A stretch of DNA of 64,000 bases. Origin: Purpureocillium takamizusanense. Its lineage: Eukaryota; Ascomycota; Sordariomycetes; Hypocreales; Ophiocordycipitaceae. The notes beneath the pieces are model-generated. The model worked only from the letters and a program-made list of their open reading frames with translations, was not told where the DNA came from and ran no database searches. A program made the position numbers and the translations under genes. The number at the start of each line of letters is the position of its first letter. The stretch's first letter is position 1. The DNA lies in the NCBI RefSeq assembly GCF_022605165.1, contig NC_063068.1:5146001-5210000 (forward strand), given 5' to 3'. Below are positions 5,284-50,446 of this stretch, in pieces.

Positions 5284-8200
5284 CGTGTAAGCGGAATGTG
5301 AGGTGTCGGTCGCGAGGCCAACTCAACGGCGCGCATGGAGAGGCGGGAGGTGCTCGCTCGTCAGGGCTTTATGTGAGCGACTCGCCCGTTGCTCCTCGAG
5401 TCGTGGCGCGGCGACCGCGCTTATGCGATCGGCAGCAATGCGCCGCGGCGAGAGACACAACTAGCAATGAACGAGGGCGCGCGTGGCCACATGCGCTGCA
5501 GGTCGCAAATGATGGGCGACGCGGTCAGATCAAGGGCCTGACTGAGGTGCAGTGAGGTCATGCAGGGTCGCTGCCTGGGCCGACTTTTCTACCGCGTGCG
5601 GTGGCCTGACGTAACCTTTGGCAGGCTCGTGGACGCCTGTGGAGACGGGCGGTGCAGCCACAGAGCGATTTTATCACGGTGGGGTGGTGACGTCCAGGGG
5701 TCTATTTATTGATCGTTTCGAGTCGTGAAAACCGCCTGATCTGTTGTTGGACATGAGAGACATGAGGAGCGGTCGGTGCCGTTTTATCCTCGGGGCCTGA
5801 GAGGACCATTTGGCCACAGGAACAGCCTTTGTTCGCCAGTCACTACAGTATCAGCGCAGACTTCGCGGTGGGCGGTTTTCCTATGCAGTGTTTTGCCTTT
5901 GCAGCTCGCTCCCCGCAGCCTTGGATGACAGCGGGCGGGAAGCCGCAACCAATCTCCACGACTCACAGCACACACGTGCGGCGATGAGACGGTGGCGCTG
6001 GAGCCGCGCTCGAACTCAACTGACCAACGCGCCGCGCCGCAGGGAGGGGCACGCGACCCTTTTTGGTGCGGCGCGCCTGCGCAGCAGCGGCACATTGTGC
6101 CAACGTATCGTAGTCCGTACTTGGTCGTGGCCCTTGATGGGCAGCCACACCCGCTCGGTGCTGCCGCCGACTGCGACGGCGGGTTGGTCGGTCGGACTCG
6201 GGGCGCTGTTACTGCGACACCGCTGCTGGCTCATATGCCGGTTTCAGCTGACTGGGCTTGCATGCAGATGACTTTCAGACAACTGACGCTGACGCGGATG
6301 GTCGCAGGCTCAAGCCCCCCCCCCCCCCCCCTTCCTCCCTGGCCTCGGCTCCCCCAGCTTTTTTTGGTATGCCGGGAACGTGGGGCCTCATTGTCGGCAG
6401 CGGCGTCAACTCTCACCGATAGGGAGCGTCGTTGTTGCACGGCAGGCTGCATGAGTTCTGGTTGGCGCGGGCCAGTCTGTGATCATGGGGGGCTCGGGTT
6501 GAAGCCACCTGCAGCTGCTTGCTCATCAATCTCAGTCGAGCTCTCAGGCGCGATGACGTCGGTGGTGACAGCGAGGCAGGGTGGTCAACGGCGAGGCCTG
6601 CTGTCGCTGGTGGGATGTCATGTCTGCAAAGTGTAAGTGTGTGAGGGTGAGGTGACTTCTGTCGTGTTCCACTGCGAGCACCGATATGAGGCCAGATTTG
6701 TCTGCCTGCGTGTGTGCACCTGCTGGACGGTGCAGAAGGAGCGACCTGTCGTGCTGCTTGCTCCTGCCGCGCGCACGCACGCAAGACTGTGTGTGGCGAC
6801 AGTGATGGGAGACTGGCAGGTACCAGGCCTGTACCAGTACCTTTGCGCCTTCCACGCTCGACGAGCGGAGAGATTAGTACTGAGAGAAGAAGACGCAAAG
6901 ACACTCTTTTGCATGTGCCACTGCGAGGGCATGGCGCCCTCCCGCCGCCGTCCAAACGTGGTGGCCGTCACCCAGTATGGCTCTGAAGCGTAGGTGCTCT
7001 CGCCGACGACAAAGAGGTCCCAGCTCACATCGCCCTTGGGGGCCAATCAATCGAGGAAATACCGACCAGAGTCCATCCGCTGCTTCGGTGGGCTACGTGG
7101 TACGGGGTGACGGCGTGTTGGCGGCGCTCCCAGGCCGCGTTGCGCAGATGCAGTTTGTCGAGCACAAAGGGCACCGATATCGCAAACAGTCCTATACGAC
7201 TCAACTCAGCGACGTTTGCTCAAGTTGGGTGCTGCGACCTGCGCGAGTGCCTCCTCCTCCAGCGGCGACGATGATGTGTCGGCGGCGAATTGCCACTTGT
7301 CATCTCACGGCGACGACGAAAGCAGTCATGTATAAACCCCCTTCTCGCTTCCTGCCAAAACCATGATTTCTTTCTTGCATCCATCCCAAGGCGCCTTCAC
7401 CGGATACCGACCGGCCCTTGGTTGCCTGCTGTATCGACCAGGTCTGCACGTACAGACGCCTGGCCAGCCTGAGCTAGCTGGTCTATTATTTACCCCTCCG
7501 GAGGACAACCGAGCCACTACGATACCCTGTGGCATACTCTATGACGGGCTCGGCGCACACGGCCTGGAGGTGTTGCTTGCTAGGTCCGCTGAGCGACGCC
7601 GATCAGGAGCAGATGGATCCGGCGCAACCGGGGAAGCGAGCCTGACATGACGCGACTGCAACTCGGCAACGTCGAATTGTTCTTGATTCGCTGCGATGGC
7701 CACGGCGCTAATGCTGCGTCACCCTGTGCCATGGACGACTTCATCAACGAAGCGGGCACGCATCGTGGCAGCGATTACGACTACCAAGAGCCAGAGACGG
7801 CCGCCAAAGACTTCGGCTGGCTGGCTCGCCGCGTTAGGTAGAGCCATGGACGACAACTTATACGGGTCGAAAAGAGGCAGTCGATACCGAGGTCAACGTC
7901 GTCAACATGGGCTTTGACCAAGAGAGTGGTTGCAAGCCACTGCGGCTCCGGCCTGTCTCCTCTGGCAACTCCAAACCACGCGACGAAGCTCGGGATCGTG
8001 TTGAGCACCGTGTGCCCGGCGGCAATGATCACTTCCTTCTCTCCATCAAAGACGGTGATTGACCATGTGCTGCCGGGCGTATATACATCGCGGAAGACCG
8101 ACCCGGACTTTGACAAGACGGCCCTCCTCTAATTCCTATACAAATACAGGGGAATGCACGGCAGGGCTGCCTTGCACACCGAGCCTTGAGGACCGAAGTC

Positions 8201-8580
8201 CTCAGCGGTCTTGACATCAGTACGGGTCTCTGGCCATGAGCTAGCTTAGAGGCACCGGCAGCAGCTCCGGCCCCGGCCTTAGGGGAAGGGGAAGGGGGAA
8301 AAGATGGTATGTCTTTACGTAGTAGTAACAGTGGGGAAAACGCCGGTAGATTATAAATTGGGCCAAGCTTTAAATACTGCTCTCTGATCTACCTAAAGTA
8401 TGCAAAAACCGGGCCATAGAAATCCTTTCGAAACTTCGTTCCTCAAGGCACTAACTACGTACAAAGTGTCGCCCATCTCCGCCCAGTAGTTTCAAGCCGG
8501 TCTCCCGTAACAAAACAAACCCCCGTATTGCAAACCTAGGGTGCATACTCAGCATCCACGCTAATAGGTAGTTAGACTCG
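5284..8580. other. Gene-poor region upstream of PPN1
   Basis: About 3.3 kb without a confident gene apart from the coding remnant listed separately near 7.8-8.2 kb. GC-rich open frames on both strands here have no recognisable motif and conflict with each other. A run of 17 C lies at 6315-6331. One CACGTG (5973-5978), the core bound by Pho4/NUC-1-type phosphate regulators, lies about 690 bp upstream of the PPN1 start; a single hexamer at that distance is weak evidence. Confidence 0.5.
7781..8235 (-). pseudogene. Decayed coding remnant, possibly serine-protease-like
   Basis: On the minus strand one reading frame stays protein-like from about 8235 down to about 7840, broken by an in-frame TAG at 8129-8131. 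The part after the stop contains a run ending EVIIAAGHTVLN, which resembles the strand and catalytic His of trypsin-fold proteases (TAAHC/AGHT), followed later by DDVDLGID. After about 7845 the frame loses coherence, as if by a frameshift, before a stop at 7781-7783. No Gly-Asp-Ser active-site segment could be found downstream. There is no good ATG start, although intron acceptors (TAG) occur nearby, so it could instead be an internal exon of a spliced gene. Treat the protease resemblance as a hint only. Confidence 0.28.
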
Positions 8581-8928
8581 TTAACCTACTGAGTTCTGAC
8601 ACTGTCGAGAGCTATAGCGCCCCCAGAGTTCCCATTTCTCAGGAAGATCCGAGGTGCGGTTGAGGTAGGGATGCAATGCCCAAAAGAAACCACATGATTG
8701 AGTCACCTCCCCGCAATGCTATATATAAATATATTAGCAACGTATATCCCCTAGCTAGTAATAAGAGTATATACATACTCCTTTGATGGGCCGTCCATTC
8801 CACCAGTCTTTAGCAGCTAAGGCTTCGCCTTCGAATTCATATCTGTGTAATAGCTCATCGCCTTCTTTTGGGCATCGTCCGCTAAAAGCAAGCGCTACGG
8901 ACAAAAAGGAGAGGAAGAGAAGCCTCAT
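8581..8928 (-). CDS. Small secreted four-cysteine protein (candidate effector)
   Basis: Not recognised as any named family. Two exons, 8779-8928 and 8581-8718, joined across a 60-bp intron (8719-8778) with donor GTATGT, branch-like GCTAAT and acceptor ATAG, phase 0, giving 95 aa. A classical signal peptide, MRLLFLSFLSVALA, is followed by a mature part of about 80 aa with four cysteines (19, 52, 59, 90), three Trp in the second half and one N-glycosylation site (N70-R-T). A TATA box (TATATAAAG on the minus strand, 9014-9023) lies about 85 bp upstream of the ATG. Each piece is modest alone, but signal peptide, TATA spacing, fungal-type intron and a coherent frame on both sides of the splice agree. 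It stands alone in an AT-richer stretch beside the paralogous six-cysteine genes, with which I see no sequence similarity. Confidence 0.66.
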
Positions 8929-9013
8929 AGTTGCCGTCGGATGTCTTGAGAGTTGGAGGGTTCAATTGCGGTTCTTGAACTAGCTGATACGGGGTCTGGG
9001 GGACCAGAGGCGC

Positions 9014-9023
9014 CTTTATATAT
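9014..9023 (-). promoter_or_regulatory. TATA box of the four-cysteine secreted protein gene
   Basis: TATATATAAAG-type motif read on the minus strand, about 85 bp before the ATG at 8928. Confidence 0.5.
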
Positions 9024-9885
9024 ACGCGTCATTATATCAGCATTGATAGAAATGATATATACACGTAATATTGGTGACAAATTGGCCGCCACGAGGGCAA
9101 TATATTATCCCTCATGTACGATCTAGGTGGGAGCCTGGTAGACGCACGGATGCCTATTGTACCTTCTGAATGCCCGGGGGCCATTTTAGCTCTACCCGGG
9201 CGAGGCGTCGCGCTGCGCACGGTGTTTCCAATTGCCGAGGAGACAGAGCAATTAACTAGTCATATAAAGTGTAAACTGTTCAATGGCTTTTACGCAAGGC
9301 CAACCCCACCTTTGTATATATATACAAAGTAGTAGTTGTGTAGTGAACTTGTGTGTAATGATGGCGACCTCTGAGTAAGCGATGAGATTGATAATCCACG
9401 AGACTACTATCATTGACAACTACATACAACGTCCTCGTAGTCATAGGATTAGGGCTGTGATTGATACGCCCCCATTTCGGCTCTTTGTAGGAGGAGGTAT
9501 AATAATCACGTACCTTACTTGAAAGCAGCATTCTATTACCCAAAACTCGAGCACGAAAAACGCTTCATTCGAGAGTCCTTCGGCTTCCAAGTGTAAGGCG
9601 CAAGCGGAGAACAAGTCTCGGTTGACCCAATGAAGTGATGGGCCGCAGGCAGCACGCCGATCATCCCTGCCGAAGTGAACAATCATCGAAACGCCAAGGC
9701 CGCATAGCGTCCGCGAGCCGGCGATGTCGGGGCAGGTGGTAGAAGCCGAAACTCGCCCGACGCCGGCCTATGCCTCCTCTCATCCGACATGTCTATCAAG
9801 ACCGGCGGCGGCAGCGCTGGGTGCCGCTTTCTGGAATGGGGTTTCCACTAAGCGCAGACGGTATCCATCGTGCGTATCTGCGACA

Positions 9886-9906
9886 CCCCCCCCCCCCCCC
9901 GGGGGG
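9886..9906. repeat. C15-G6 homopolymer block
   Basis: Fifteen C immediately followed by six G, able to fold as a hairpin. It is prone to slippage and to assembly error. Confidence 0.9.
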
Positions 9907-10093
9907 AACGAACGATGGCCTGCTCGGTGCGTGTCTGAAGATGGCAAGCCGAAAAGGCCCGAAGCCTCGAGCCACACGTTCAAGGAGTCAAAGAAATCTC
10001 AGAAATACAGGAAGTCTAAGGAGTCGAGCGTTACAATTTAGTCACGAAATCACGTTCTGATCATGATGTAGAGAAGAGAGAGAAGGGGGGGCA

Positions 10094-10099
10094 TATAAA
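10094..10099 (+). promoter_or_regulatory. TATA box of the first six-cysteine paralogue
   Basis: TATAAA, 136 bp upstream of the ATG at 10230, preceded directly by a run of seven G. The paralogue at 12190 has the same G-run plus TATA arrangement, which supports shared promoter descent. Confidence 0.6.
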
Positions 10100-10229
10100 G
10101 ACCGCTTGTCCTTGCTCGAAAGAAGCGGTTAACCTCCAATTCTATCACTATCGCCATACTCATTCCCACGCTTCACGCACTAACCAATTTTCCACGCCCT
10201 GCCTCGTCGGCCCGTCCACACCCTACGAC

Positions 10230-10721
10230 ATGCGTCCCTACCTCGTTGTTTCTTTGCTGTTAAGCGTGGCGCAGGCCGGTTTTGAGATCAAACACGGCGT
10301 ACGTGCAAGGCGAAGGGCCTGGCCCCCAAGTGCAGACCCGCGTGAACGAATGCGTAACAGTCGAGGGGATTGGCTGACATGGTGTTGCTTCTAGCGATGC
10401 GACAAGGCGGAGCAGAAATGCTACTAGAATATTGCGTTGAAGGAAGGGCTTCTCGGGACCTGCCACGATCATTTCAAAGTGAGTCTTGCTTCCCCCTCTC
10501 AGACCTCACTCACATGGACAGCCTGTTGTTTGCTCAGTGGGCATTCGTTATACAATATTATATATATATATATATGTACGGAGTGCCGTTGACCCGGGAC
10601 GCTAACGCTCAACTCTCCGCAGTGCCCCAAACAAGGCGGGAGGTGCTGGTGGAACTCTAACGGCGACGCTACCCGGTGCACGCCGCCTACTATCGAGGCG
10701 GGATACTACCTCACGCGTTAG
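10230..10721 (+). pseudogene. Six-cysteine small secreted protein, copy 1, broken by an in-frame stop
   Basis: Three exons, 10230-10298, 10395-10478 and 10623-10721, all introns phase 0. Exon 1 encodes a signal peptide starting MRPYLVVSLLLSVAQA. Exons 2 and 3 carry six cysteines spaced C-x6-C-x13-C-x5-C-x6-C-x10-C, exactly as in the copy at 12190. The eleventh codon of exon 2 (10425-10427) is TAG where the intact copy has an Arg codon, and the frame continues well on both sides. Exon 2 is 84 bp, as in the paralogue. The second intron contains a (TA)n run. The C-terminus ends soon after the last cysteine and lacks the lysine tail of copy 2. Either a pseudogene or a gene with exon 2 skipped (skipping keeps the frame); pseudogene is the simpler reading. 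The family is not one I recognise. Confidence 0.68.
10556..10575. repeat. (TA)n microsatellite in intron 2 of copy 1
   Basis: Alternating TA tract of about 20 bp within the 144-bp second intron of the broken paralogue. Confidence 0.85.
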
Positions 10722-12011
10722 TCCCAGATGCACGCTCGCAAAGGGCATGAGACTTGCCGCTTAGAGGTGTAGAGTTGGTGCATGGCGCGGCTTTTTGGCT
10801 GAAGTTTTGAGGCGGCGCGCTGGCTGGAGTGAGGAGCGCCCTTGTGGTCGCAACGTTCGGGCCACACACAAAAGAACAACACTCGTGTCACGGCACGGGA
10901 GACGCCAGTGGTAGATGCCGAATTTAGAGCTGAGGTTAGTGGTAGAAGCTGAAAACGCATCCGGCTGCGGCCTGTCCCTCTTTTTCCATCTTTGATATGC
11001 TTTCCCGTGGAGATGCGGTGATTGAATGCAGCTCCTAAGATGGTCCTTAACTAGCAGACGAAAACATTGTCGTGAGTAGTGATTGGGTTGGTTGTTACTG
11101 TTCGCGCAGACAGAAAGACTGGCCTGGCCGCACAGCTGGCTACTTAGTAACGTACTGGTAACCTTGGTTCAGGTACTGAATAATATCCCGTGCTTTCTCG
11201 GGGTACTATGCGCACGGGACGGCAGCGCCCGCCCGCGCCGCACCGCAAGCCAAGACATGGCGCATCTTTTTCCATGAGAGAATCATGTTGCATAGCCCCG
11301 CCACTGGGCTCTTGCGGTGACAAGGTCCGATTCACTTGAAAAGCGCATGACCGTTCTTTATAGTTTCCTCACAATGTCATGATAGCGGCGGGCATCATGT
11401 TCGACTCGGGATCACCATGGGGCCCGGCCAGCCTATGGTCCTACGGCCCCCCCGGAACTGCGCCAGTGACTATCTAACTACTACGTTACGAATTACGTCC
11501 GTGACTATTTTGCTCCCTCCGCCCCTCCCCCATCTTGGATTGGACTGTGATGGCCTCGCCCGCCTCGGCCTTGGCGCCGCCGCGGCCCGCGGTGCGACAC
11601 AATGCCGCCGTGCAATCCGTTGCGTGACGATGGTTGAAACTACAGCGCCCCGTGTCTCTTTTGTTGCTGTCCGGTCCACCCCCGATACGTTTCACGGTTC
11701 TTCTCGCGCTAACCCAAGTCGTGCGCACGTTGATTGTGTATCGCAGTCTAGATCAGACCAAGTTTTTTTTCTATCTGTGCGAACAGCAGCTCAGTACTAA
11801 ATCGTTACGGGACGCTCATGATCATGCCCCGTGTTACGCCCCCCCCCCCTCCCCGTGACTAATGGCCGCTCCGTGCACATGCAGATAGTATAGACATAGG
11901 CAACCAGATTGAAACTGCAGACAAGGCAGACGGCGCGCATACGCCTAAGAAGCCGGGCGTTATATCGTTCGTCACGACATCATGCGTTAGTCACGATGCA
12001 ACAAGGGGGGA

Positions 12012-12019
12012 ATAAATAT
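12012..12019 (+). promoter_or_regulatory. TATA-like box of the intact six-cysteine gene
   Basis: ATAAATAT, 178 bp upstream of the ATG at 12190 and directly after a run of six G, matching the layout at copy 1. The 42-bp larger spacing is mostly explained by the TTC repeat at 12110-12142. Confidence 0.5.
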
Positions 12020-12109
12020 GGCATGTATATCAAGGCCGCTACCATTCCCCCCCTGGCAAGAGACTCGGCATGTCCAACCACGATCCAGTACCACCAGACT
12101 TGGCTCCTG

Positions 12110-12112
12110 CTT

Positions 12113-12142
<30 letters not shown>
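12110..12142. repeat. (TTC)n tract in the leader of the intact six-cysteine gene
   Basis: About eleven CTT/TTC units ending 47 bp before the start codon at 12190. It is absent from the matching position of copy 1, so it expanded after the duplication or was lost in the other copy. Confidence 0.85.
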
Positions 12143-12143
<1 letters not shown>

Positions 12144-12189
12144 TTCCGCGCCAACTCTCAAATCGACCTGCTGCCGTCTACTATACGAC

Positions 12190-12833
12190 ATGCGTCCTTA
12201 CCTCGTCCTCGCCATACTTTTTCGCCATGTGCTAGCCGTAACTCTAACCTACGAGGTCGTAGCCGGTGTACGTACGACTGGGGCGGGAAGAAACTTGCGG
12301 CGTGCCGCACCTCCCGGGGATATACAACAGACGTCGAGAACGCTAGCTGACGTACGTTTGCTTCTAGACATGCCATTTCGAGGCGAGGTCGTGCTACAGG
12401 GACGCTGAGAAAGGTGAAGGGTTCCTCGGGGTTTGCAATGACTATTATCCCGTGAGTCCCCCTTCACCCCCCACCCTTTTCGGGGGTCTCGCCTTGACGG
12501 GCCCTTTTTTTTTTCCCTTTGTTCTTTCCCTCTTCGGAGTGTATATCCGTGGAGCAGAGTGTACCAGCAAACGCAAGGAAGGGGGGAGGGTGGCGGAGGT
12601 GGCAGCGTGTGTGTGTGTGTGTGTGGTTCATTACTCAGGGGGACGCTGACGCTCCAAACTCTCCTCCTCCGCAGTGTCCTTATACCGGCGCACCATGCAC
12701 GACGATCCTACAGAACAGTTTTACCCAGTGCCAGGGGAAACTGGAGTCTGCGGGGCGGCATAAGCTCAAACCAGACAAGAAGAAGAAGAAGAAGGAGGGG
12801 GAGGAAGGGAGCACCTCTTTGACCGAGGCGTGA
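12190..12833 (+). CDS. Six-cysteine small secreted protein, copy 2, intact (candidate effector)
   Basis: Three exons, 12190-12267, 12368-12451 and 12675-12833, phase-0 introns of 100 and 223 bp, giving 106 aa. Exon 1 gives a hydrophobic leader (MRPYLVLAILFRHVLA), a likely signal peptide although its core is interrupted by Arg-His. The mature part has six cysteines, C-x6-C-x13-C-x5-C-x6-C-x10-C, consistent with three disulfides. Splice sites are good: donors GTACGT and GTGAGT, acceptors TTCTAG and CCGCAG, and a CTGAC branch site shared in place with copy 1 (CTAAC there). After the last cysteine comes a tail with six consecutive Lys then Glu/Gly/Ser, encoded by AAG repeats and absent from copy 1. 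No family is recognised. Duplication, cysteine conservation and conserved intron placement argue that it is a real gene; a role in interaction with a host or competitor is inference. Confidence 0.72.
12606..12625. repeat. (GT)n microsatellite in intron 2 of the intact six-cysteine gene
   Basis: About nine GT units. The corresponding intron of copy 1 carries a (TA)n run instead. Confidence 0.85.
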
Positions 12834-13835
12834 GGCGACATGGCCAACTGCCGTCGTGGTCGCACCGTTGGGATCACACACAACCACTCATGTCGAGGCA
12901 CGGGGAGGCGCGCGCTCGTGGTGGTTGGTGGTGAGCGAAGTAGATTGTGGAGGAGTGGAAGTCGGATTGGGGCTCTTCTAGGTGTGGTAGGCCCACCACC
13001 AATACCTTGCGCACCCGACACCATCCAATGCGCATATGCATTCGCTCTAGGTACATACGTACCTCATGCAGCCTTGTATTAGCGGGGCGCCCAACGCAGG
13101 GATTAATACCTCCTCCCACCACTGCTCGTGACTCTCTTTTTTTCTCCTTCTTTTTTCCCTTCTACCCACGCAACGTCCAGTCCTCACAAATTGACCCTTT
13201 TCCTTCACAGCGCCACCGTGGAATTGTCGGCCCGACGCACCGCGAGGACACCCGTTGCCAGACCAATACCAACCCCGCCGCTCGTTTGAGGGGGGTCGCA
13301 CGTTTCTTCTTCCGTGGCGGCTCCCTATGGTTTTTCGCGGCGACAGTCTTTTCTTCTCGCTCGTGACGATGATGATGATGATGATGATGATGGTGACAAC
13401 GATGATATGAAGGAGTGGTGGCGGTGGCGGTGCATGTCGTACTTTTTGCTTCGACACGACGCGGGGGATGTGCAACGCGCGACGGCTGGACTCGGCTATC
13501 TATGGATGGATGCCAGTCCGTCCGTCTTGATCATCGCCAACCGGCGGGACCGTCGTCGTCGTCGTCGTACTCATTATCGTGGGCATCAATTTCACGTAGC
13601 GCCGCAGCAGGATGGGGGGCTTCATTGCTTCAATTGTCCTTCAATTTCATTGCCACATGTCCAATTCGCAATTTTCGCCAGCCGTTTCCCCTCGGCGTTG
13701 CCCAAAGACGCTTTCAAATTGCAAAGAAAAAGAGTCTATACACACACAAACTCCGCCCAGCGAGTGAAACACGTTGAAGTATCCCTATTCTGTTCAAGTG
13801 ATAAAAATCCCTACACATGGCCCCCGGCTGCTTCG
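12834..13835. other. Spacer between secreted protein locus and GCV1 3' end
   Basis: No gene seen. The first 80 bp are the 3' flank shared with copy 1. A (GAT)n repeat lies at 13368-13392 and a CGT repeat near 13551-13566. The last part is the 3' UTR of the minus-strand T-protein gene. Confidence 0.55.
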
Positions 13836-15109
13836 CTACGCATTGCTCTTGTGGTACCGCGTCTGGACAAAGGGCATCTTGGTCACAACGCCCTTCCTCT
13901 TGCGGCCGCGGACCACCACGTCCAGCTCGGTGCCCGCCTTGTGCAGGCCGTCCTTGACGTAGCCCATGGCGATGTTCTTGCCCAGCGTCGGGCTCGGGAC
14001 GCCGCTCGTGATCTTGCCCACCGTCTGGCCGTCCTTGGCCACCTCGGCGCCGTCACGCGCGGGGGCGCCCTCGACAACAAAGCCCACGCGGCGTCTATCA
14101 ACACCAGCGCCGCCCTTGCTCTTGGGTGTGAGCTGGGGAATGATGACCTCGGCGCCATGGAAGCCGCCGGCGGCGCGGCGCTCTTTGGGAATGACCCAGC
14201 TGAGGCCGGCCTCGACGGGAGTCGTCGAGTCGTCGAGGTCGTTGCCGTAGAGGCACATGCCGGCCTCGAGGCGCAGCGAGTCACGGGCGCCGAGGCCAGC
14301 GAGCTGCAGGCGCTCGGGGCCGGCGGCCTTGAGCAGGGCCTCGACGGCGGGACCGGTGGTCTCCAGGGCAGGGTAAAGCTTGCCGTTGAAGGAGATCTCG
14401 AAGCCGTCCTCGCCCGTGTAGCCGCCGCGGCTGATGAGGACGGGGTGCGTCTTGGAGCCGTCGGCCAGCTTCAGGTCGGCCCAGACGGCGTTTCCAAAGT
14501 AGAGGGCGTCGAGGTTGACGTCTGAGGCTAGGACCTCCTTGAGCACGTCGGCGGCCTGAGGGCCCTGCAGGGCGACGAGGCCGGAGCCGTCCAGGCGGGT
14601 CCACTCGACCGAGCCGCCAAACTTGCCCAGCTCCTCGTCCAGATACTTGGTGTCCTTTTCGAAGCAGGCGCCGTTGGTGACGACGTAGTACTCGTCCTCG
14701 CCGATCCTGGTGATGACGGAGTCGTCCACGATGCCTCCGGTGCCGGGCCACAGAAAGGTGGTCAGCTTGCTGGCCATGTTGGCCTGGGTGGCCCAGCCCG
14801 AGGGTGTGACGCGCTCGAGGAAGGCGGCGGCGTCCTTGCCTTTGAAGATGTGCTGGACCATGTGGCTGACGTCAAAGAGCGAGGCATGGTTGCGGGTGAA
14901 GTGGTGCGAGTCGGCGAGGGAGGCGCCGGCGTACTGCACGGGCATGCTGTGGCCCGCGAAGGGGACCATCTTGGCGCCGTGCGCGAGGTGCACGTCGTAC
15001 AGCGGCGTCTTCTTCAGGTCGGCGGTGGCGCCGGCGCCGGACGCGAATCGGACTTGGCCGTTGCGCCTGGCGAGGCCGACGGCGGGCGTCGCCGCGGCGG
15101 CGAATGGGG

Positions 15110-15144
<35 letters not shown>

Positions 15145-15218
15145 GAGGTGCCGAGGCGCGCGCGAGTGAGCGCCCGGGGCGCCGCCCGGACGGCCGCTGT
15201 AGCAAGGCCCGACTTCAT
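13836..15218 (-). CDS. GCV1: Mitochondrial aminomethyltransferase (glycine cleavage system T-protein)
   Basis: Transfers the methylene carbon of the aminomethyl-lipoyl intermediate on H-protein to tetrahydrofolate, releasing ammonia, in the mitochondrial glycine cleavage complex. One exon, 460 aa, start at 15218 (MKSGLATAAVRAAPRALTRA), an Arg/Ala-rich presequence lacking acids, as expected for mitochondrial import; in-frame sequence upstream of that ATG looks non-coding. Residues 25-36 are a pure Ser run. The catalytic fold begins near residue 69; the family blocks LFDVSHM (114-120), RGGYTGEDGFE (264-274) and ARDSLRLEAGMCLYGND (311-327) are intact, followed by the C-terminal barrel ending MPFVQTRYHKSNA. 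Length fits the family once the presequence is removed. Confidence 0.95.
15111..15143. repeat. CTG/CAG trinucleotide run encoding poly-Ser in the GCV1 presequence
   Basis: Eleven units read as Ser codons on the minus strand, within the predicted targeting peptide and not the enzyme core. Confidence 0.9.
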
Positions 15219-16116
15219 GCTGGAGGGGAGGGGGGGAGATGCGGCGCGTGCGAAGGGAAGAGGGGGGAGGTGCAATCGTCGGCGCAATTGAGGCGATGTT
15301 AGAGGAAGGGAAAGGAGGCAGGTGGAGGAGAAGGAAGAAGAGGAGGAGAACGAGGCAGGCGGAGACCAGCGAATAAAGGACGATGGTCCGTGTGGCTCGA
15401 CGAACGAGGCTTCTGGACTGGACGCCGTAGAGCCCTTGGGCTTGGGGGAGGCGGTATATGAGAGGCTGCTCGTTCGCACCTTCCCCAGGTCAACGGGCGA
15501 ATCTGTGACTGATGAAATGCTCAATCGAGTAGGAGCGGTGGTGGGGCGGCGCGGGTCTCCACGGGCCCTGGACACGCCGCTCCGATATCGAACCGCGCCC
15601 TGCCGGAGCCCCAGCGCGCTGTGCTAGTAATTATTACCTGATGTCAACCCACCCGTGGGCCACTTGCGGTGCCCTGGTGCGCCCAACTAAACATGGCGTG
15701 TGTGTGCCTGGACCGCCCTTGATGAGAAGAACTGAGTGTCATATTGCCGTGGAGAACGCGCACGAGAACCTTCACGCCGCAGCCACGGACCACGGCACGG
15801 CATGGCATGGCACGGCATAGCATTACTAGCTAATAAGTTGGGGTCCAAGGTGCTGTATGTAGTGTAGTGTAGTAATGCAATGCAACCAACTTGCTACCGT
15901 AAGGTGTAGGTGCGCCGCACAATGCAGCTTCTGCGACGGCCTCTGCGTGCTCGCTCTCCGTCCATGATCGTCTTGTACAGGCCATCCCTCCTCTCTCTCT
16001 TCTCACTCACACAACCAACACTACCGAGCGGGACGCGGGCTAACCAGAGCGCTCTCCATGATTCCACAAGCATCGTCGACCGTTGACGCAAAATACAAAC
16101 ATCATGCCGGCAAGCA
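15219..16116. other. Spacer: GCV1 promoter and V-ATPase H 3' end
   Basis: About 900 bp, no gene seen. It contains a purine-rich block (15300-15360) just upstream of the GCV1 start and imperfect GGCAC/GGCAT repeats near 15785-15825. Confidence 0.6.
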
Positions 16117-17694
16117 CTACTTCTGCTCAAAGCTGTACTTGAGCCAGCCTCCCAGCGCCCGCAGGCTCTCCCACCGCACGTTCTCGTCGTCCGACTGCAT
16201 CAGCTCCATGACCCGGCGCTTCAGCCCAATCTTCTCCAGCTGGTGCCGCCGCTCTGGCACCTCTTTGACCAGGCACCCAATGTCGTTGCACGCAATGGCC
16301 AGCACCTGCTTGTCGTTGTCCCATGGCTGCTGCATAATGGCCGCCAGCTTGCGCGGGATCTCGCCGTTCTCAAAGTCGAGGATCTTGCGCGCATTCTCCG
16401 CCCAAAACACCTCACTCCGGTGCGGCGGCGACCACCGCAGGTGCCCGGCCTGCACCTCGGCCACGTACTCGTCAAACGTCGTCTTGGTCTTGGTGTACTC
16501 GGCCAGTAGCTCCTTGAGGCTCTCCAGGTCCTCCAGCAGATCGGGGTCGGTGAGGTGGCGGCTCGTCAGGTTCTCGAGCAGCCCCGGCAGCCGAGCGAGG
16601 ACAGCCGTCGGCAGGAGGGACTTTTGATTCGCCTCCAGCAGGTTGTAGAGCGTAGAGAGAATCAGCCGCGTCGTCTTTTCCTTTGGAGACAGGCGCAGCA
16701 GCTGCGTGTACAGCAGCACGATATCGTACTCGCTTCAAGAGGTCAGCATGTACCATCACAAACGTGCCCCGCAGCGCACTCACTCGTTCAAGTCGTCGCC
16801 AATCTCTTCCGCCTCGAAGCTCATCTGCCATCCCACCAGCAGGACGTGGTAGAGGAGCTGCAGCCCAACGCCGCCGCCCAGCGAGCCCTCGAGGCCGACG
16901 TTGCGTGTACTGGTGCTGCCACTCCACAGGTTGGCGGCCGAGTCGCCTCCGTTGCCAATGCCCGCGGCCGCCTGCAGGATCTTAATCAAGGGTCCGACCG
17001 TCTCGCTCCGCTGCTTCCAGAACTGCTCGCGCGAGACGTGGCCGAAGAGGAGCGCCGAGTACTCCTGGACCGCAATGTCCTGCAGCCCGGCATCGGTGCT
17101 CTTGGCGAGGCCCGACAGATAGGTGAGCAGCACGGGCAGTGCCTGGAGGGTGGCGCGGGACTCATCCCGCGCAAGGGACATGAGTCTCGTCAGGGCATGC
17201 GCGGTAAGCAGGGGGATCGTGTCTTCGGTGGTGTTGGAGTGCAGCAGCGGCAAGAAATGGCGGTACGGGTCGGTCGTCTTGAAGAGGGACTTGGCCAGAG
17301 ACGGGACAGCTGCGGGTGAAGAGTCAGTCTCCGGGCGGGGTTCGTGACAGGGCAGCTGCCCAAAATCCCGGGGAACGAGGGAAGGCATCGTCTCACCATC
17401 GAGCAAGTCTGCTAGCAGCACGAGCATGTACTGAACGATGTTGGCGTTCTTCCCCGCCGTCTCTACGACGCTCGGTTTGCCCTCGTCACCGACAAAGAGC
17501 AGACGGTAGCCATCGAGGTCAGCTTCCACGACCTCCCTCCGCTGCTCGGGCTTCTTGGCCTTGTCGACGGCGCGGACCTTGGCGTACTGGTCCTCGGTCA
17601 CGGTGCGCGCGCGAACGGCGCCGTCCCAGGGGATGAGGCGCTGGCGAATGTTGCTCTGCAGCGAAGCGAGATACGTCGGCGGGTCGAGCGACAT
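16117..17694 (-). CDS. VMA13: V-type proton ATPase subunit H
   Basis: Regulatory subunit of the V1 sector; couples V1 to Vo and prevents ATP hydrolysis by free V1, so it is needed for vacuole acidification. Three exons, 17397-17694, 16784-17309 and 16117-16732, introns 87 and 51 bp, 479 aa, matching the usual length of about 480. The N-terminal part (MSLDPPTYLASLQSNIRQRLIPWDG...) and middle form the all-helical HEAT-like domain; the C-terminal domain contains KILDFENGEIPRKLA, PWDNDKQVLAIACNDIG and the highly conserved end ALGGWLKYSFEQK. Both junctions restore family sequence: LLD-AVPSLAKSLFKTTDP and DDLND-EYDIVLLYTQLLR. It lies upstream of GCV1 on the same strand but with its own 900-bp spacer. 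Confidence 0.95.
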
Positions 17695-19653
17695 GGCGGG
17701 CTGTGAGGGCGTTGCGTGCGCAACGGCGGGCAAGAGTAGTCGTGGCGAGCAAGGACGGGGGAGAGGAGAGCCCGGCGAGCAATGACGCGGCGGCGGATAG
17801 GTGGGAAGCAGCCGCTGCTGGCAACAGTGAGGATGGCCCGTGGTGGAGGATGTGGGCGGCGATGGTGGTTCCCGGCGGCTGGATGAGGTGAGGTGAGGTC
17901 GCGCGGAGGATGGCCCGAGTGACCAGCGGCAGGCGTCACGGCTCTGGGGCTGTATGTCTCTCTGGTGACCTGTGCCAGGGAAAGCTCCTGCTGGTGCTCT
18001 GAACAGCCTACGCTGCTGAGCTAATTGCCCAGCTGCACTTGGGGACCCACCTCTTGCACAGGCGCTGTTTCGCCGGCAAGGGTGTGGGATGTGTTTGAGA
18101 GACCGTGGGCAGATTACCCGAAGATGGGCCGCAGCCGTTAGCGCACGAGTCCTGTCGGCTGTAGCGCCGCTGCTCAGCAGGCGCACCCTGGTCGCACCGG
18201 GACGAGGGTCCTCCAGATCGTCACCAGCAGCATCTTACATCCAGCCACCGCAGTTTCCTGAGGCGCAATGCAGGGACCCGGAGCGGCCAGGCGTGCAGTG
18301 CAGCGCCCAACTCCCAAGTCAGTCATCCATCCCACAGCACGCACCGGGCTGCAGCCATGGACAATGAGGCTGCAGCTCCAATGTGCCTGATTAGGAAGCT
18401 CGGGATTTAAATGTCATGGTCGTCGTTGTCGTTGTTCCTTCGCCGCGAGCGACGATGTTCAATTTACCCGGCGTCCCGGACTCCCGGGTAGCAGCAGTGT
18501 CAGCTCTCTCGCCTCAGTACTAAGGTGACGCTGGGGACGCCGATCGCTTCACGTTTGCCTTATCGATACCGCATACCTGATAGCATGCAAGATGCAGACA
18601 CTCCGTCTAGGCGCTAGAGCACGAACCCAACGGCACCTGACAGGCGGGCAGGGCAGCTTCCGTCTGGTCTTGTGTTGAGGGAGCTGGAAGCGAAGCCCGC
18701 CCCGGCGGCGCCGAAACTCAGCAGCGCGCGAGTTGCAACGCCAGCCAGCCATGATGCAATGCACACGACGTACCATGACTACGGTCACACAGAGGAATCA
18801 ATTTACCCCCGGTACCCTTGGGAAAGAAACGGGTTGGAACCAGGGATATCAGGGCCGATCCTGGAAGCTGTGTCGAAACAAAGGGACACTACGAAGTTGA
18901 GTTAGTGTCTGTAGCTCGCTCGTACCTGGAAATGGAGGGGCTGGGCCTGACGAGCGGGTGGGCGGGCGGTGGTGCCCAGTTGCCCCCAGGCCACTGCCAG
19001 TTAGGCCCAGGCGCTGCCTCCCTCCCCCGAACCATGGCCGGCACACCACTGCACCACTCCAGGCAGGGAAGGGCCAGAAAAAAAGTGTGGTGGTGGGGGG
19101 AGGAGGGGAGGTGGTTGGGGATGGAGACGCAGCGCCAGCGCCAGCGCAGACGTGCAGCAAGCCCAGTGCCTCTCTCTTAAAGCTTGTTGCATCGCCTGCA
19201 GCAAACCGTTTGTGCGCTTCCCTTCTGGTTCCTTCTTGTGCGAGAGAGGCTTCTTTTTTACCACTTACCTACCTCCTGTTTTTTTCGCCTCTGCGCAAGG
19301 TTGGACAGAGCTCGACTCTCGTCGTCATTGCCACTCACTACCCGCAGCGGCCCGCGCGCCCGACCACCCTCGCGCTACCACCACCGCCTTCGTACGCAAT
19401 TGCTAGACTGCCGACGGCCGAAAAGCACAGCGCCCCTCCCGCTCCGCCCGCCCGCCCAAGTGTGCGTGTGTGTGTCCCGCATTCCAACCGCCCGTCCCGC
19501 CCGCCGGGGGGGACCAGGAGCGAGGAGCGGACGGACAAACGCCCCGAAGCTTGGGGGTGGTGAGATCAAACAGAAACAGAAACAGAGAGTGAGAGAGGGA
19601 GAGAGAGTGGGACGGACAGACGGAGCAAGCGTCCGTCAAAGTAGCAGCAAGCA
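17695..19653. other. Divergent spacer between VMA13 and the membrane protein gene
   Basis: About 2 kb, GC-rich, no gene supported. The last 350 bp before 19654 are pyrimidine-rich then purine-rich (GAGA near 19580-19610), as in the leader of a plus-strand gene. Confidence 0.55.
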
Positions 19654-25485: not shown

Positions 25486-28400
25486 TCATGCAATCTCCAT
25501 GATATCGCCAGCCTCGAACCCAAACTGATTATTCTGGATCGCGGCAATCCGATCCAGCTCGTCCTGGTACTGCTTCCGGATGTCCGCCAACGACACCACC
25601 CTCCGTCTCGGGGCCTCCCCGTTGTGCTCGACGCCCTCGTCGAAGATCCAAGCCTGTTTGGCATCCACGCAGCTGAGCGCGTTGATGAGCAGCAGGTAGT
25701 GCCTGGTGACCGGCGTGTCGAGCACGTCTTCGCCGTCAACCTTGTCTCCCTCGCCCGCGCGCCTCAGCTTCTGGATCCGGTCCAGGATGACCGAGGCCGC
25801 GCCGCGGTAGTTGCTGCGCTTCATCCTCCACGCGTACAGCACTTGATGGTAAGGAAACCCGTTGATCACATCCATTGTGTTCCTACACCGCTGGGCGAGT
25901 ATTGTATCCACATCCTGTTGCATCCCTGGGAACGGTAACGATACCAGCTCATGGCTGTGATAAGTCTCGCACATCTTGTCAACGAGCTTTCGCAAGCTGG
26001 AATGCTTGAGAGCCTCGTTCTTCATGGACAGCAGGCTGGTATGCGCCAACTCGAACTGCGAAGTGGCCAAGGCCGCATTAAACAGCCGACTGAGCATGTC
26101 TGCATGAGTAGACTCGTTGCCCTTACCGGCATTCAGGAACTGGACCGCAAGCCGGGCGAAATCAAGGACGTAGGCGTATGCTCGGTGTCCCTCAAAGAGC
26201 GCAACAATGTGGGAGTAGTACTTGGCCTGGCCGTTGTTGAGCAGGTTCCACTCTGTATCGTCAAGCAACCCGCAGCTGTGACGGTCTGACTGCACGTTCT
26301 CTGTGGCTGTACTAGGTTAGCTTCGTCTTTTATGACCGTTTGACCAAACATACCCATGCCAATGGCAGCTTTTCTGAAGTTGATCGCCGCCGACTCAAAG
26401 TCCCTGAGAACCAGCGACACTCGTCCTTGGATGTAGACGGAGAATGGGTTTTGGTCGCAAAAGGGCGCCAGGTTCAGAGCTAGGTCGGCCCTTTCTTGCT
26501 TGACAAGTGAACATTGAATCAGCGTCGGGGAAACCTCAATGTCGCTGTCTGGTGCGCAAAGGTTCGCAATGAGCTCGGTGATGCTGAACGACAGCGGCTC
26601 ATTCCTAACATTGCCAAAACCGAGCAGATGTCCCACATTGGCTTCCAGCGCGGTAACAACCTGGGACTCCTCGCCGCCCTTCTTCGAGAGCACGGGCGCC
26701 GCTCCCTTCTCCGCCTTGAATAGCGGAACAGACAGTTCTGTTCGCGAGAGCCACTTCAGCAGCTCCAGCCTCCTCAGTGAGCTCACGAGCTCGCGATATA
26801 CCGGTCCGATGCTGACCCGGTGGTGCAGAGCCTCTTCCTCCGTGTCGAATTCAAACTCCATGTGAACGAGGAGAATGAGTTGAGAGAAACACACTTTCCA
26901 TTGGAGATCAATGTTGTCCTGAACACCTTTCATGACGAGCTTCTTGCCAAACTCGGTCAGCGGGTGTCGTAGGTGGCGTCGTTTCGCCTCTGGCGGCGCG
27001 GCAATCAAATCCAGTACGGATCGGTAGAGATCATCAGTGACAACGCCAAAGTTGGTCCCCAGGGCGTCCACGACCTGTGCGCAGTCCTCGTCGGTAATGC
27101 CACGCCAGAAGCCAGCCTTGTCTGAAAAGTATTGGATGCGCTCCAGATCCGTCTTGGACGACTCCTCAAAGATTTCCTGCCGTAGCACCGCGGTGCAGAG
27201 CTGCACGTAGTTATCGGAGAATCCGTCCACGAATGCCAAGGCGGCGCCGACCAGTGCCGCCTGGTCGACCTGGTCTTCGTCTGGCTTTGAAAGGTTATGA
27301 TGTAGTCGTTCTAGGTTGCTGCACTCGGTGATCGCGGAAAGCAAATCTGTGCACACCACCCAAACCATGTCAGCCTCGGGATCGAGTGCCAGGCCGATGG
27401 CCTCGCCTCGTTGCCTGTCGAGCTCGATCAGAAGCCGGTAGAATCGTCGCCACTGAGTTTCGCTCGACGCCCGGAACTGCTCGTAGTCCATGGCACCCGA
27501 AGGACCGCGTTCCAGGGATGCCGTAGAGCCCAGAACGGAACAAATCGACTCGGCGAGGCCTCTGCCCTTGCTGCTGTCCTTGGGCTTGCCCAGTCCCCGC
27601 TCATAGATGGACAAGGCCGTCTCCAGTGTTGCTTTTGTGAACCGTCCGGGCTGCAAAATCGCTTGAAGCCACTTTTCTGTAACATCGGTCGAGTCGCATG
27701 GGCCCGACGTCTGAGCAGCAATGGTGGTTGTATCGGCATAGACGCCCTCCCATCCAGACTCCCAGGTGGGGCCCATGTTCTTCCTGTCGAGCTCCAGGCG
27801 TTGCACTCTGTACGTCATGTTGTTTTTCCAAAGAGTCCAGACGTTGACGGCGCCTTCCGTTGGGGACGCTAGGACGAAGTCGGCGAGCGTCCAAATATCC
27901 GAGGACGAAGGCGTTGGGGGCAGCAGAGTGTTCCTCGGGAACATGTCCTCGACCATGACAGTGTGCGCATCCTTGGCGATGATCTTCCAGAATTTGAACT
28001 CTCCCGGGCCGATTGGGGAATACGTGGCGCAGAACCGCTGACCGCGATGCCGTCCAACGACTTGGACCAGGTTTGCCTGAGAGGGATCGATCGACCACTT
28101 GCCCACTTCCTGCGGCGACCGGTCCACGTCCAGAAGGTCTCCCGTGTAAAGAATCTGCCCGTCGTTGACGTTCCAGATGCGCATTCGATGATCGAGGCAG
28201 ACTGTGATTGCGAACAAGGTATCCTCGAGGCCGAAGGAAGTGACTTGCAGCGACGTTGCGGCACTGTATTCCATATTGACCTTGCCGTATCTGATGGTGT
28301 GCTTGCCCTGGAACGGTAGCAAGCTGCGAAGGTTCTGAGCCCAGCCTTGCACGTTGAAGAATGACTCCTTCCATAGTCCGCTAGATGCTGTGTCTGGTTT

Positions 28401-29078
28401 AGTCTCGCCACGTCTGTTGAGCTGCCTCATCAGGGATAACTCACTGTCGTCCGTCCGCGACTTGTCGAAACGAATCATGCCACCATCGTTGACTGTGGCG
28501 AGCAGGACATCCGCCGACACGGCCACGAGGCGGTGCGCCGTCTTGAAGCCCAAGCCGGCCGGGGACTGCACCTTGCCCAGCTCAGACAGACCGGCGTCGA
28601 CAGCCGTCTTCTTGCGGAACAGGTCGGGGCGCAGGGTGAACGTGTACAGCCGCGACGCCTGATCTAGGACGAACACGCACAGCGCGTCGTGCTCCTCCGG
28701 ATCCGCAAACGCCACGCAGCCCTGCTGAATCGGCACAGCGAAGTGGAAATTCAACACCAGCGGCGCATCGGGGGCCTTGTCCTTCTTGCACACGTCGGCG
28801 GCGCGGATGCTCAGCAGCGTGCCGTCCTCGAGAACCCTCCACAGGAAGCTGCGGGGCGTGTCGTGCCATCTCCGGTGATATACCGAGGATGCGGACGCGA
28901 GGTTCTTGATCTTGAATGTCGTTTCATCTTCGGCAGACGACTCGAGTGCCAGCTGCTGCTGCTGTCGACCGCCGCCGCTTTTAGAGGGCACGCGGATCGT
29001 CACGACCGAGGCCGGCGCAGGAGGCTCGAGGTTCAAGCGGGTCTCTTTGAAGAGATATTGGGTTTCGCTCGAATCCAT
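25486..29078 (-). CDS. NUP120: Nucleoporin NUP120/NUP160, Y-complex scaffold
   Basis: Structural subunit of the Nup84/Nup107 Y-complex coat of the nuclear pore. Two exons, 26354-29078 and 25486-26306, 47-bp intron (GTATGT...GCTAAC...GTACAG), phase 1, 1181 aa. I take the ATG at 29078 (MDSSETQYLF); the frame stays open further upstream but without an ATG. The N-terminus KETRLNLEPPAPASVVTIRVP is the recognisable family entry block, followed by a beta-propeller region to about residue 450 with repeated W/D-rich strands, then a helical region to the end. The C-terminal exon contains YAWRMKRSNYRGAASVILDR, a typical alpha-solenoid segment of this family. Length agrees with fungal homologues. Confidence 0.88.
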
Positions 29079-29641
29079 CTCGCCTCCATCAAGCGACCAA
29101 ATATAGCGGAGGGAGAGTTTCGACGTCGGATTGGAGGGCGGCGCGAGCTGATGATTGAACACTGGCGGGCAGTTGGAGGCGCGTCTGGAGGCACAAAGGA
29201 AATTCGAGCATGGGGAAACTTGGAGGTCACAACTGCGCTAAACCCAATGTGGAAAACAGCTGGGTGTCACCACACCAGCACCCAAACGACGCAAAAAGTG
29301 CAGAGACAAATGAGGGAAACATTGAAACAGTGACAGCACCAAATGCACGCAAAGTCATCTGACATCAACAGATAAGACCTTATTTTGGCAACTGCCTCCC
29401 GGTGTCGATTGTCATGAGGCAGCTTCCTCGAGCTGGACATTATCTTGGGGACTACCATCAATGAGACGAGGAAGCAGCAGGAATCGCGAACAAGCTGAAG
29501 ATTACTATTTGTGCGGAAATTCTAGACACTCAATTTCTTAAGCACATAAATGCAAACGCCATGATCCATGCGCGGCCCGGCTGGACAAGCCCGTCTTCGT
29601 TCCATCATTACCGTGTTTGCTCGTTGCTCGCGGCCCGAAAC
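29079..29641. other. Spacer between RAD51 3' end and NUP120 start
   Basis: 563 bp between two minus-strand genes; holds the NUP120 promoter and RAD51 3' UTR. No gene seen. Confidence 0.65.
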
Positions 29642-44443: not shown

Positions 44444-47400
44444 ATGGCGCGCGACATCCGCGCAAAGGCGCTCCAAAAGATAGCTTCGCTGTCGGCGGCC
44501 AGCTCCACCATCTCGTTCGACCGGTCCGATCTCGACAAGCTGTGCCGGGCCTGCCATGCGGGAGGCAGGGGACGGGAGTATGCCCATGGAGGATACAGCG
44601 CGAAGCAAGCCGGCTCGTTGGGTCGCGTGCCAATGGTCAGTGTCAATGTCTTCTTCACCCGGCGCGAAATGCGGCTCAGGGGCGCCGTGCATCACGCCGA
44701 CTAACTGTGTGCCGTAGTCGATTCGCGAGTTCGAGGTCCTGCTGGCCTTGTGCAAGACGGCGCCCAGCATCCAGTCGGCCCAGAGCGCACAGAGGCTCTC
44801 GTTCCAGCTCATCCCCTATATCCTCGAGGCGCACTCCCAAGTCTTCGTTCCGTCGCCCTTCTTCCGCCGCATCGAGCCGTCGCCGACCGAGTCTCTCTCC
44901 TTCCACGCCACGGGAGCCCTGCTGGCCCTTGGTTTGAAGTTCGCCGACCTTAGGGAGACGGTTACAGATGGAATCTGGGCCTTCACCAATTCGTGCAGCC
45001 GCGCCATCGAGTCGGTCATCTCGCCGCACGCCAGCGACCCCGAGAATCCGCCCATGAGCGAGGCCGTCCGCACAGCCACCATTGCCCTTGCCTTGCTGGG
45101 CTTCTTGGATGCCGCGTCGGCCCAGGCCGACTTTTGGAAGGCTGGCGGCCGTTTGGGTCTCATACAGAAGATTAAGCAGCTCCTGTCTGAGCAGTTCCTT
45201 ATCGCCGTGGAGACAGCACTTTCCACCATCCGCAACACCCACAGCCAAGACCGTGAGGCAAAGGAGTGGAAGAGACTTCTTCGCCACTACTCTTTGGCCG
45301 GAAGGCCTCTCGGCGCGACTCTCCTTCAGCGCAGCTTCATGTGGCTGGTGCTTTCAAGCACGTCTCTCATGGTGGTCGACGGCCCGGCTTTGAGGAAGGT
45401 CCACATTCTGGACCTGCTCATGTCGGGTGCTGGAAATGTTCAACCCGAGGCGGGCCAGCTACTCGACGGTGACCTCCGCTCCATTGAGGTGTACGCCGGC
45501 ATGGCTGTCGAGCAGATGGAGTACCTTGAGGCTGGTGCCGACTTTGCCCGTCTTGGCTCGCCGCATCAGCAGAAGCTGGCCCTTGCCGTCAAGTCTGCCG
45601 CCCTGATCACGTATCTGAACTGCTCGCTCCTCGATGAGGAAGTCGCAGATGGGGATGTTCTCATGACCTGGCTACAAGAAACTCTCGAAGATGAGGTGCA
45701 GATGGCGGACCAAGGCTTGGCCTCCGTTGTGCTGCGATGCTTGGCTCTGATATGCCGCGTCTCGCCCGACTTCTCCGGGACTGTCAGTCGCCTCCTGCCG
45801 CGATTCCTTGTTCAGACTACACCGCACGGTTCGACTGTTCGCGTGGCATCGGACAGCCTGGCATATGTTCTCAAGATGCTATCAAAGGACGCCGTCATTA
45901 GCATATTGTACACACTTGGCAACGTGCTTAGCCCTGAGCTGGGAGGTGCCATCACCAACGGTCAGGTCAACGGAACAGCCGGCGGTGATGGGGTCGCAGG
46001 CGCCGTATATGCCGGCCGCCCTTCCACTGGCAGCTCCATTTCTCTACTGATGGACGGCGAGGAAGAGACAGCCATTGTGTACGGCAATATTGTGCATGCG
46101 ATCTGTCGCATCGCAGCAGCATACAAGGACGAGAAAATTACTGCCTTGGCTCAGTCTATGCTCCTCCAGAAGCTAGACAAGGTCAACGCCAGTGTCGATG
46201 CCCAGGTCATTTCCGGTGCCGCAACATTGGCTCTCCATGGCGGCGCGCTTGAGTTCCGAGCGCTTCTCAAGATGTACAGCAGGATATGCCACATTGGCGT
46301 CGTAGATGGCAAGGAGTTCTTGCTGGCTGCGGTATGTACCTCGATTCCCAGCTCGGGAACGGCGAAGAATGCTGACGTCTACAGGTCATGAAAGCAAGGA
46401 CGCATATATCTGCCAACTTGAAGCGTGACTCTCCGCTCTTTGACATCTACTGGGAGCACCTTGCGGATAGCATCATCTCTCTAGGTGATGCTGAGACGTC
46501 CAGCCATACCAAGGAATCCGACATGCAGCTTGTGGCTCAGGAGATCGGCGAGCTTCTACGTCCTTTGGCCGTGTTCATGGCCAGCAACGACCTTGCCTCT
46601 GAACCTCTAGGCGACGAGGAGGCGTATTCGATGTTGAGAGACGCTTGGTTCAACATTGCCGTGCATGGCTTCACAGCTGGCACGGACCGCGCCAAGATAT
46701 ACATGGCCGAGCTGCGCACCATTGCCATCCATTCCCCTGCGCTGGTCGCCGGCGAGCGAGGCGAACAGGTGGAGAGCGACATCGAGCTTAACACCGTATT
46801 ACGGCGAGGCAGCAGCGGCGAACGAGAGGCCATGCAGAAGAAGCTTCTCACTGGGCTCATACCGTCCAAGGCAGCTGATATTAAGAACCTGAGCTACCGC
46901 AAAGTCATCTTCCTGCAAGCGGCGTACCTCGTCGAGACCCTCCGAGCCGAGTCGGGCGACTGCACCAAGGTTCTCACCTACTTCCTCGAACCAAGCATGC
47001 GCAAGATGGAGGTCAACAACACCATGGAGGGTATCGCCTCTGCCGTCATCGACAAGTATCTCCAGAAGACTCTGGCAGGCACCGACCCCAGCTTCTCAGC
47101 GCAATACGCGGCCACGCAGCTTGCGTCGATCTTTTGCCGGTGTTGCCATCGCATCGAGCGGGTGCAGCAAGCGGCATTGAACAGTGCGGACCGCATCATC
47201 CGGGAAGTGCCTTCCGCTCTGTGCAACAGGACTCCGCTGTTTGCCCTCTTGGAGCTCCTCTCGCTCATGTGGTCGAGCTGCGTCGAAGCCGAGACCGACC
47301 TCTACACGCCTCGGTCGACCTTTTCCTCGTATCTCGGAAAAGTCACTCTCGAGCTTTCCGATGACTACGAATTCCGGCGTTGGACGTTGGACATCTTGAA

Positions 47401-50400: not shown

Positions 50401-50446
50401 CGTCTACGACCAGTTCCAGCTGCTGACCAACGGCATCCCATACTGA
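44444..50446 (+). CDS. STT4: Phosphatidylinositol 4-kinase alpha
   Basis: Makes phosphatidylinositol 4-phosphate at the plasma membrane, upstream of wall integrity and actin signalling. Three exons, 44444-44635, 44718-46331 and 46385-50446 (introns 82 and 53 bp, phase 0), 1955 aa. The start ACCATGGCGC is strong and exon 1 (64 aa) joins as M-SIREFEVLLAL. Residues up to about 1400 are helical-repeat scaffold. The segment EIKPTLDSVMEKMV and the Lys-rich linker before PYMATF precede the kinase domain, which begins near WQSAIFKVGDDCRQD. The catalytic loop DRHNGNIMIDD starts at D1810 and the metal-binding DFG at D1828. The end, STGVYDQFQLLTNGIPY, is the conserved PI4K C-terminus. Confidence 0.97.

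Follow-up and report, generated by a model that had tools for sequence, protein, structure and literature searches.

A tandem pair of predicted secreted six-cysteine protein genes on a PAF/AFP-like cysteine frame, one copy broken by an in-frame stop codon

For the antifungal proteins of the PAF/AFP family, the published cysteine pattern is CX6CX11-12CX4-9CX6CX10-13C (PMC6027536), and the gamma-core GXCX3-9C is reported as common to the AFPs studied (PMC11423270). The same paper describes the studied Eurotiales AFPs as generally forming a five-stranded barrel, with abcabc disulfides in PAF, NFAP and PAFB (PMC11423270). At the gene level, two introns are reported for the genes of AFP classes A and B (PMC6182064), as well as for paf and pafB (PMC5788923). 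In the characterised members the mature protein starts 16-19 residues past the signal cleavage site, and the main N-terminus of mature Efe-AfpA, the protein of Epichloe festucae (Clavicipitaceae), is ITYEGTC (PMC5514056). Within the Clavicipitaceae the family is described as patchy; losses are inferred, and Claviceps paspali may carry a pseudogene (PMC5514056, PMC3532157).

The window analysed here is a whole stretch of 64,000 nucleotides (C1:5146001-5210000) of a 35.6 Mb genome in 14 contigs. Joining exons from the DNA gives two tandem three-exon units on the plus strand, gene 1 at 10230-10721 and gene 2 at 12190-12833, lying between an upstream calcineurin-like phosphoesterase ORF and a downstream glycine cleavage T protein gene (13836-15575), the latter identified with Pfam. 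The T protein points to a hypocrealean fungus as the host of the pair, because it is most like hypocrealean ones: among the best 120 of 7837 matches the top match reaches 84%, and the top named matches include Purpureocillium lilacinum (83%), Metarhizium album (80%), Epichloe bromicola (79%) and Drechmeria coniospora (79%). Further along are other ordinary conserved neighbours assigned by Pfam, namely V-ATPase subunit H (16780-18186), Nup120 (26133-29162) and a PI4-kinase (46388-50446).

Exon 1 of gene 1 (10230-10298, 69 bp) encodes a signal-peptide-like start, and its last residue is the gamma-core Gly; it is followed by intron 1 (10299-10394, 96 nt, with GTACGT, GCTGAC and TTCTAG as donor, branch-site match and acceptor), the stop-broken exon 2 carrying Cys1-Cys3 (10395-10478, 84 bp), intron 2 (10479-10622, 144 nt, with GTGAGT, GCTAAC and CCGCAG), and exon 3 carrying Cys4-Cys6 and the terminal stop (10623-10721, 99 bp). 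Gene 2 has the same layout: exon 1 (12190-12267, 78 bp), again signal-peptide-like at its start and ending on the gamma-core Gly; intron 1 (12268-12367, 100 nt, GTACGT, GCTGAC, TTCTAG); exon 2 with Cys1-Cys3 (12368-12451, 84 bp); intron 2 (12452-12674, 223 nt, GTGAGT, GCTGAC, CCGCAG); and exon 3 with Cys4-Cys6, a lysine-rich tail from 12732 and the stop (12675-12833, 159 bp). The gene 2 model is open over its three exons and encodes 106 aa. In both units every exon has a length divisible by three, 4/4 introns are in phase 0, and the middle exon has 28 codons (the TAG being one of those in gene 1), so that the exon layout of the original prediction, with exons of 69-159 bp, is confirmed in the DNA.

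The donors GTACGT and GTGAGT and the acceptors TTCTAG and CCGCAG are the same in both genes. Moreover, each intron holds one match to RCTRAC, which is given as the lariat consensus (PMC5788923), starting 22, 22, 22 and 30 nt from the 3' end, where about 0.05 matches per 40 nt are expected in this region. Splicing at these four junctions is predicted from such signals. The start codons of both genes lie in a common 23-base context with one variable base; with up to 3 mismatches allowed, this context occurs in the own genome at the starts of the two genes only, and its reversed control occurs nowhere. As had been claimed, both units begin with MRPYLV, a start of secretion type by hydropathy, and secretion of the products is accordingly predicted.

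The cysteine frame is what brings the pair close to the PAF/AFP family. Both units carry six cysteine codons spaced C-x6-C-x13-C-x5-C-x6-C-x10-C, as originally described (in gene 1 counted across separate exons). This spacing of 6-13-5-6-10 agrees with the family pattern except that the second gap, 13, is one above the printed range, which is likewise so in PAF and Efe-AfpA (both 6-13-7-6-10), while NFAP and PAFB have 6-12-7-6-10. The third gap of 5 falls inside the family range and is the sole gap differing from PAF, where it is 7; it is also shortened in the AFP of Aspergillus giganteus (PDB 1afp), whose spacing becomes 6-13-4-6-8 if two of the eight cysteines are left out, and which differs from the pair in those extra cysteines and in its net charge of +9. 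The gamma-core is present as G-T-C-x6-C in gene 2 and G-R-C-x6-C in gene 1; aligning gene 2 with five members of the family leaves seven invariant columns, which hold the six Cys and the gamma-core Gly. Two introns are modelled per unit, as in the genes of classes A and B. That is to say, PAF of Penicillium chrysogenum (PDB 2kcn, PF11402) shares with the pair its small size, the G-x-C-x6-C motif, the 6-13-x-6-10 frame and a two-intron gene.

Efe-AfpA, presumably from the same order, is alike in its cysteine frame, and its mature N-terminus ITYEGTC has the counterpart LTYEVVAGTC in gene 2. Exon 1 also extends at least to the gamma-core Gly in both systems: the guide target used for Efe-afpA was placed in the first exon (PMC7827515) and, by hand reading, together with its PAM it runs into the gamma-core Gly codon, at which exon 1 ends here. 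A narrow literature search found no published exon positions for AFP genes, and one for PF11402 pointed to a single paper, on Aspergillus flavus.

The statement that the pair belongs to no named family thus stands only in part: spacing, gamma-core and two introns resemble PAF/AFP, while sequence profiles do not confirm membership. PF11402 gives no match to gene 2 at E up to 10 (cut-off 25 bits), whereas it scores the positive controls Efe-AfpA and AFP at 74.6 and 62 bits. Against a home-made profile built from six sequences of the family, gene 2 scores 4.2 bits, a value equalled or beaten by 217/3000 full shuffles, 1038/3000 cysteine-fixed shuffles and 354/3000 cysteine-moved versions; with hhalign, gene 2 against the family has a probability of 0.2% and P 0.24, with the six cysteines all in register. 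Searches with gene 2 of the PDB and of Pfam, each at E up to 10, and of NCBIfam returned nothing, and the own genome gave no match to PF11402 or Efe-AfpA, a search that carried no control signal and that an intron-split gene could escape. The pro-peptide of 16-19 residues is also not present in gene 2, whose first Cys is residue 28, about 11 residues past the signal end judged by eye. As for charge, the gene 2 core is -3, its tail +4 and the core with tail +1, and the gene 1 pieces sum to +3; the five family members counted range from +4 to +9, with Efe-AfpA at +6. The acidic core, as computed from the predicted protein, speaks against a cationic killer of the usual kind, except if the charge comes from the lysine tail. 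Since profiles miss gene 2, the pro-peptide is absent and the core is acidic, the pair is filed by its sequence as PAF-like in frame, and as no proven PAF/AFP member.

These same results lend weight to a rival reading, in which the products would be lineage-specific small secreted proteins, candidate effectors or fungus-fungus signals, with an unrelated fold and a PAF-like spacing reached by chance or convergence; we regard this as a real if tentative contender. Besides the failed Pfam, profile and hhalign tests, the acidic core and the missing pro-peptide, it is favoured by the position of the pair in a stretch of GC 0.51-0.56, lower than most of the window, and by a search of about 5.8 billion proteins for gene 2 homologues, in which none of the 10 candidates reached E up to 1. 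However, the latter search says little on absence, because a PAF query returned only 2 proteins, both from Penicillium. The reading must moreover take four of five PAF gaps, the G-x-C and the two introns as coincidence: with six cysteines placed at random, at least 4/5 PAF gaps arise in 1.5e-5 to 2.2e-5 of cases (1,000,000 draws per length), a figure of about 2e-5 that is weakened by the family having been chosen after the fact.

Two other classes of protein were considered and set aside. The C-x5-C-P-x-x-G stretch of the pair is reminiscent of the chitin-binding CBM14 (Avr4-like) domain, and C-x5-C-P is present in both units. The CBM14 spacing has a longer gap where the pair has 6 residues, and has one more cysteine downstream, which is lacking in both units; together with the empty Pfam search (run with no CBM14 positive control alongside), this makes a CBM14-type domain highly improbable. 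Sca, the secreted cysteine-rich anionic protein of Penicillium digitatum, is likewise small, secreted and anionic, but has four cysteines and a different domain layout (PMC7711571), for which it was rejected as a model of the pair. A narrow literature search found no described six-cysteine secreted family in Metarhizium.

The reading we put forward, with confidence evenly balanced for and against it, is that the pair arose long ago by tandem duplication in a hypocrealean fungus and specifies small, fast-diverging, secreted three-disulfide proteins on a PAF/AFP-like frame, with gene 1 broken. Each of the two genes would originally have encoded such a protein, built on the gamma-core G-x-C-x6-C and the spacing 6-13-5-6-10. 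The most likely fold of the product would be that of PAF, a compact beta-barrel whose disulfides are paired abcabc; pairing, fold and activity are all putative. Once released outside, it might target the walls or membranes of other fungi, or the host surface. The disulfide-locked frame probably keeps the fold while the protein surface changes. Gene 2 has stayed open, with a lysine-rich tail following a core that is otherwise acidic, and gene 1 retains its splice sites and cysteine frame, now with a premature stop. A stronger form of the proposal, that the pair is a hidden branch of the PAF/AFP superfamily, diverged past profile detection on an unchanged disulfide frame, no longer with pro-peptide or cationic surface, and redirected from killing other fungi to a different outside role such as host interaction, appears unlikely.

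Gene 1 and gene 2 are homologous tandem paralogues by their DNA: within the window 10224-10496 matches 12184-12469 at 56% (E 1.6e-4), and a 3' flank block at 10838-10905 matches 12850-12911 at 72% (E 1.6e-4). The 5' flanks are also alignable on the plus strand, with a block at 10025-10106 before gene 1, holding by eye a TATA-like CATATAAA at about 10092-10099, and one at 11953-12040 before gene 2, the limits of the latter set by eye. Between the start of exon 2 and Cys6 in exon 3, with the stop column dropped, the same residue is found in 9/40 non-cysteine codon pairs (22.5%), whereas the cysteines are kept 6/6, for which the crude chance at that identity is 1.3e-4. Strong divergence on a fixed cysteine frame, as first proposed, holds. 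Its speed cannot be dated: dN and dS are 0.73 and 1.42 by NG86, and 0.75 and 1.06 by LWL85, so that dS is near saturation and dN not above dS. The pattern fits selection holding the cysteine frame with loose constraint elsewhere, with no positive selection demonstrated.

Searches of the own genome with the gene 2 protein, gene 2 exon 3, gene 1 DNA and gene 1 exon 3 found no third copy, nor did three DNA patterns (one gapped, two short), one of which matched the other strand at two places with 3 mismatches, compared with 5 places for its reversed control. Distant paralogues could escape such searches, because the one with gene 2 missed gene 1 itself.

It may be asked whether both units have decayed, or exons were joined wrongly by hand, so that no six-cysteine protein is made. 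Gene 1 is broken and the exon models come from sequence alone; the non-cysteine differences are spread as 24/24/20 over the three codon positions, and GC3 in the units, 0.64 and 0.70, is at or below that of Nup120 (0.71) and below that of the T-protein gene (0.85). We nevertheless hold such decay or misjoining to be quite improbable, in view of the open frame of gene 2, the concordant splice and branch elements of both units, and the contrast between the conserved cysteines and the residues around them.

The proposed PAF/AFP-like pair differs from the original prediction of two proteins in one respect, which had been overlooked: an in-frame TAG lies in gene 1 at 10425-10427 on the plus strand, as codon 11 of the middle exon, between Cys2 and Cys3, so that this gene is not an open protein. 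GT-AG alternatives for exons 1-2 give 13 open models that join exon 3 in phase, and the 12 of 13 inspected hold one cysteine from exons 1-2 versus three in the original model. With a TAG in the middle exon and one cysteine in the open alternatives, a six-cysteine protein of gene 1 is, by the models tried, not made from this assembly. The TAG may be a sequencing error. Since cysteines, splice sites and middle exon length are otherwise kept, the sequence suggests that the break is recent. RIP is a candidate cause, with indices shifted just mildly: at 10001-11000, TpA/ApT is 0.98 versus 0.64 for the window, and (CpA+TpG)/(ApC+GpT) is 1.08 versus 1.20.

Should the PAF-like fold hold true, counts of hypocrealean antifungal-protein genes would be too low, since short genes of three exons that preserve hardly more than their cysteines can go unnoticed in gene finding and in profile searches. 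The two neighbouring genes, of which one is open and the other broken, would in addition illustrate clearly the birth and death of genes in this family. For Efe-AfpA a further role, in infection of the host, is already suspected (PMC7827515); a relative that is acidic and carries a tail could therefore help to tell killing apart from other functions.

Some minor features of the locus are added here. Over 8001-11000, around gene 1, TpA/ApT is near 0.98, a mild RIP-like shift, with the second index (1.08) weaker. The lysine-rich tail of gene 2 (12732-12833) partly and loosely aligns with DNA downstream of the terminal stop of gene 1, and for this reason the tail may owe its origin to extension into what had been 3' untranslated sequence or to expansion of a microsatellite. 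Finally, a CTT repeat at 12110-12142, upstream of the gene 2 start, is complementary to the AAG repeat at 12777-12794 that encodes the lysine run; the inverted match extends over 12106-12152 with 12752-12798 at 74%, and the repeats could pair in a transcript holding both.
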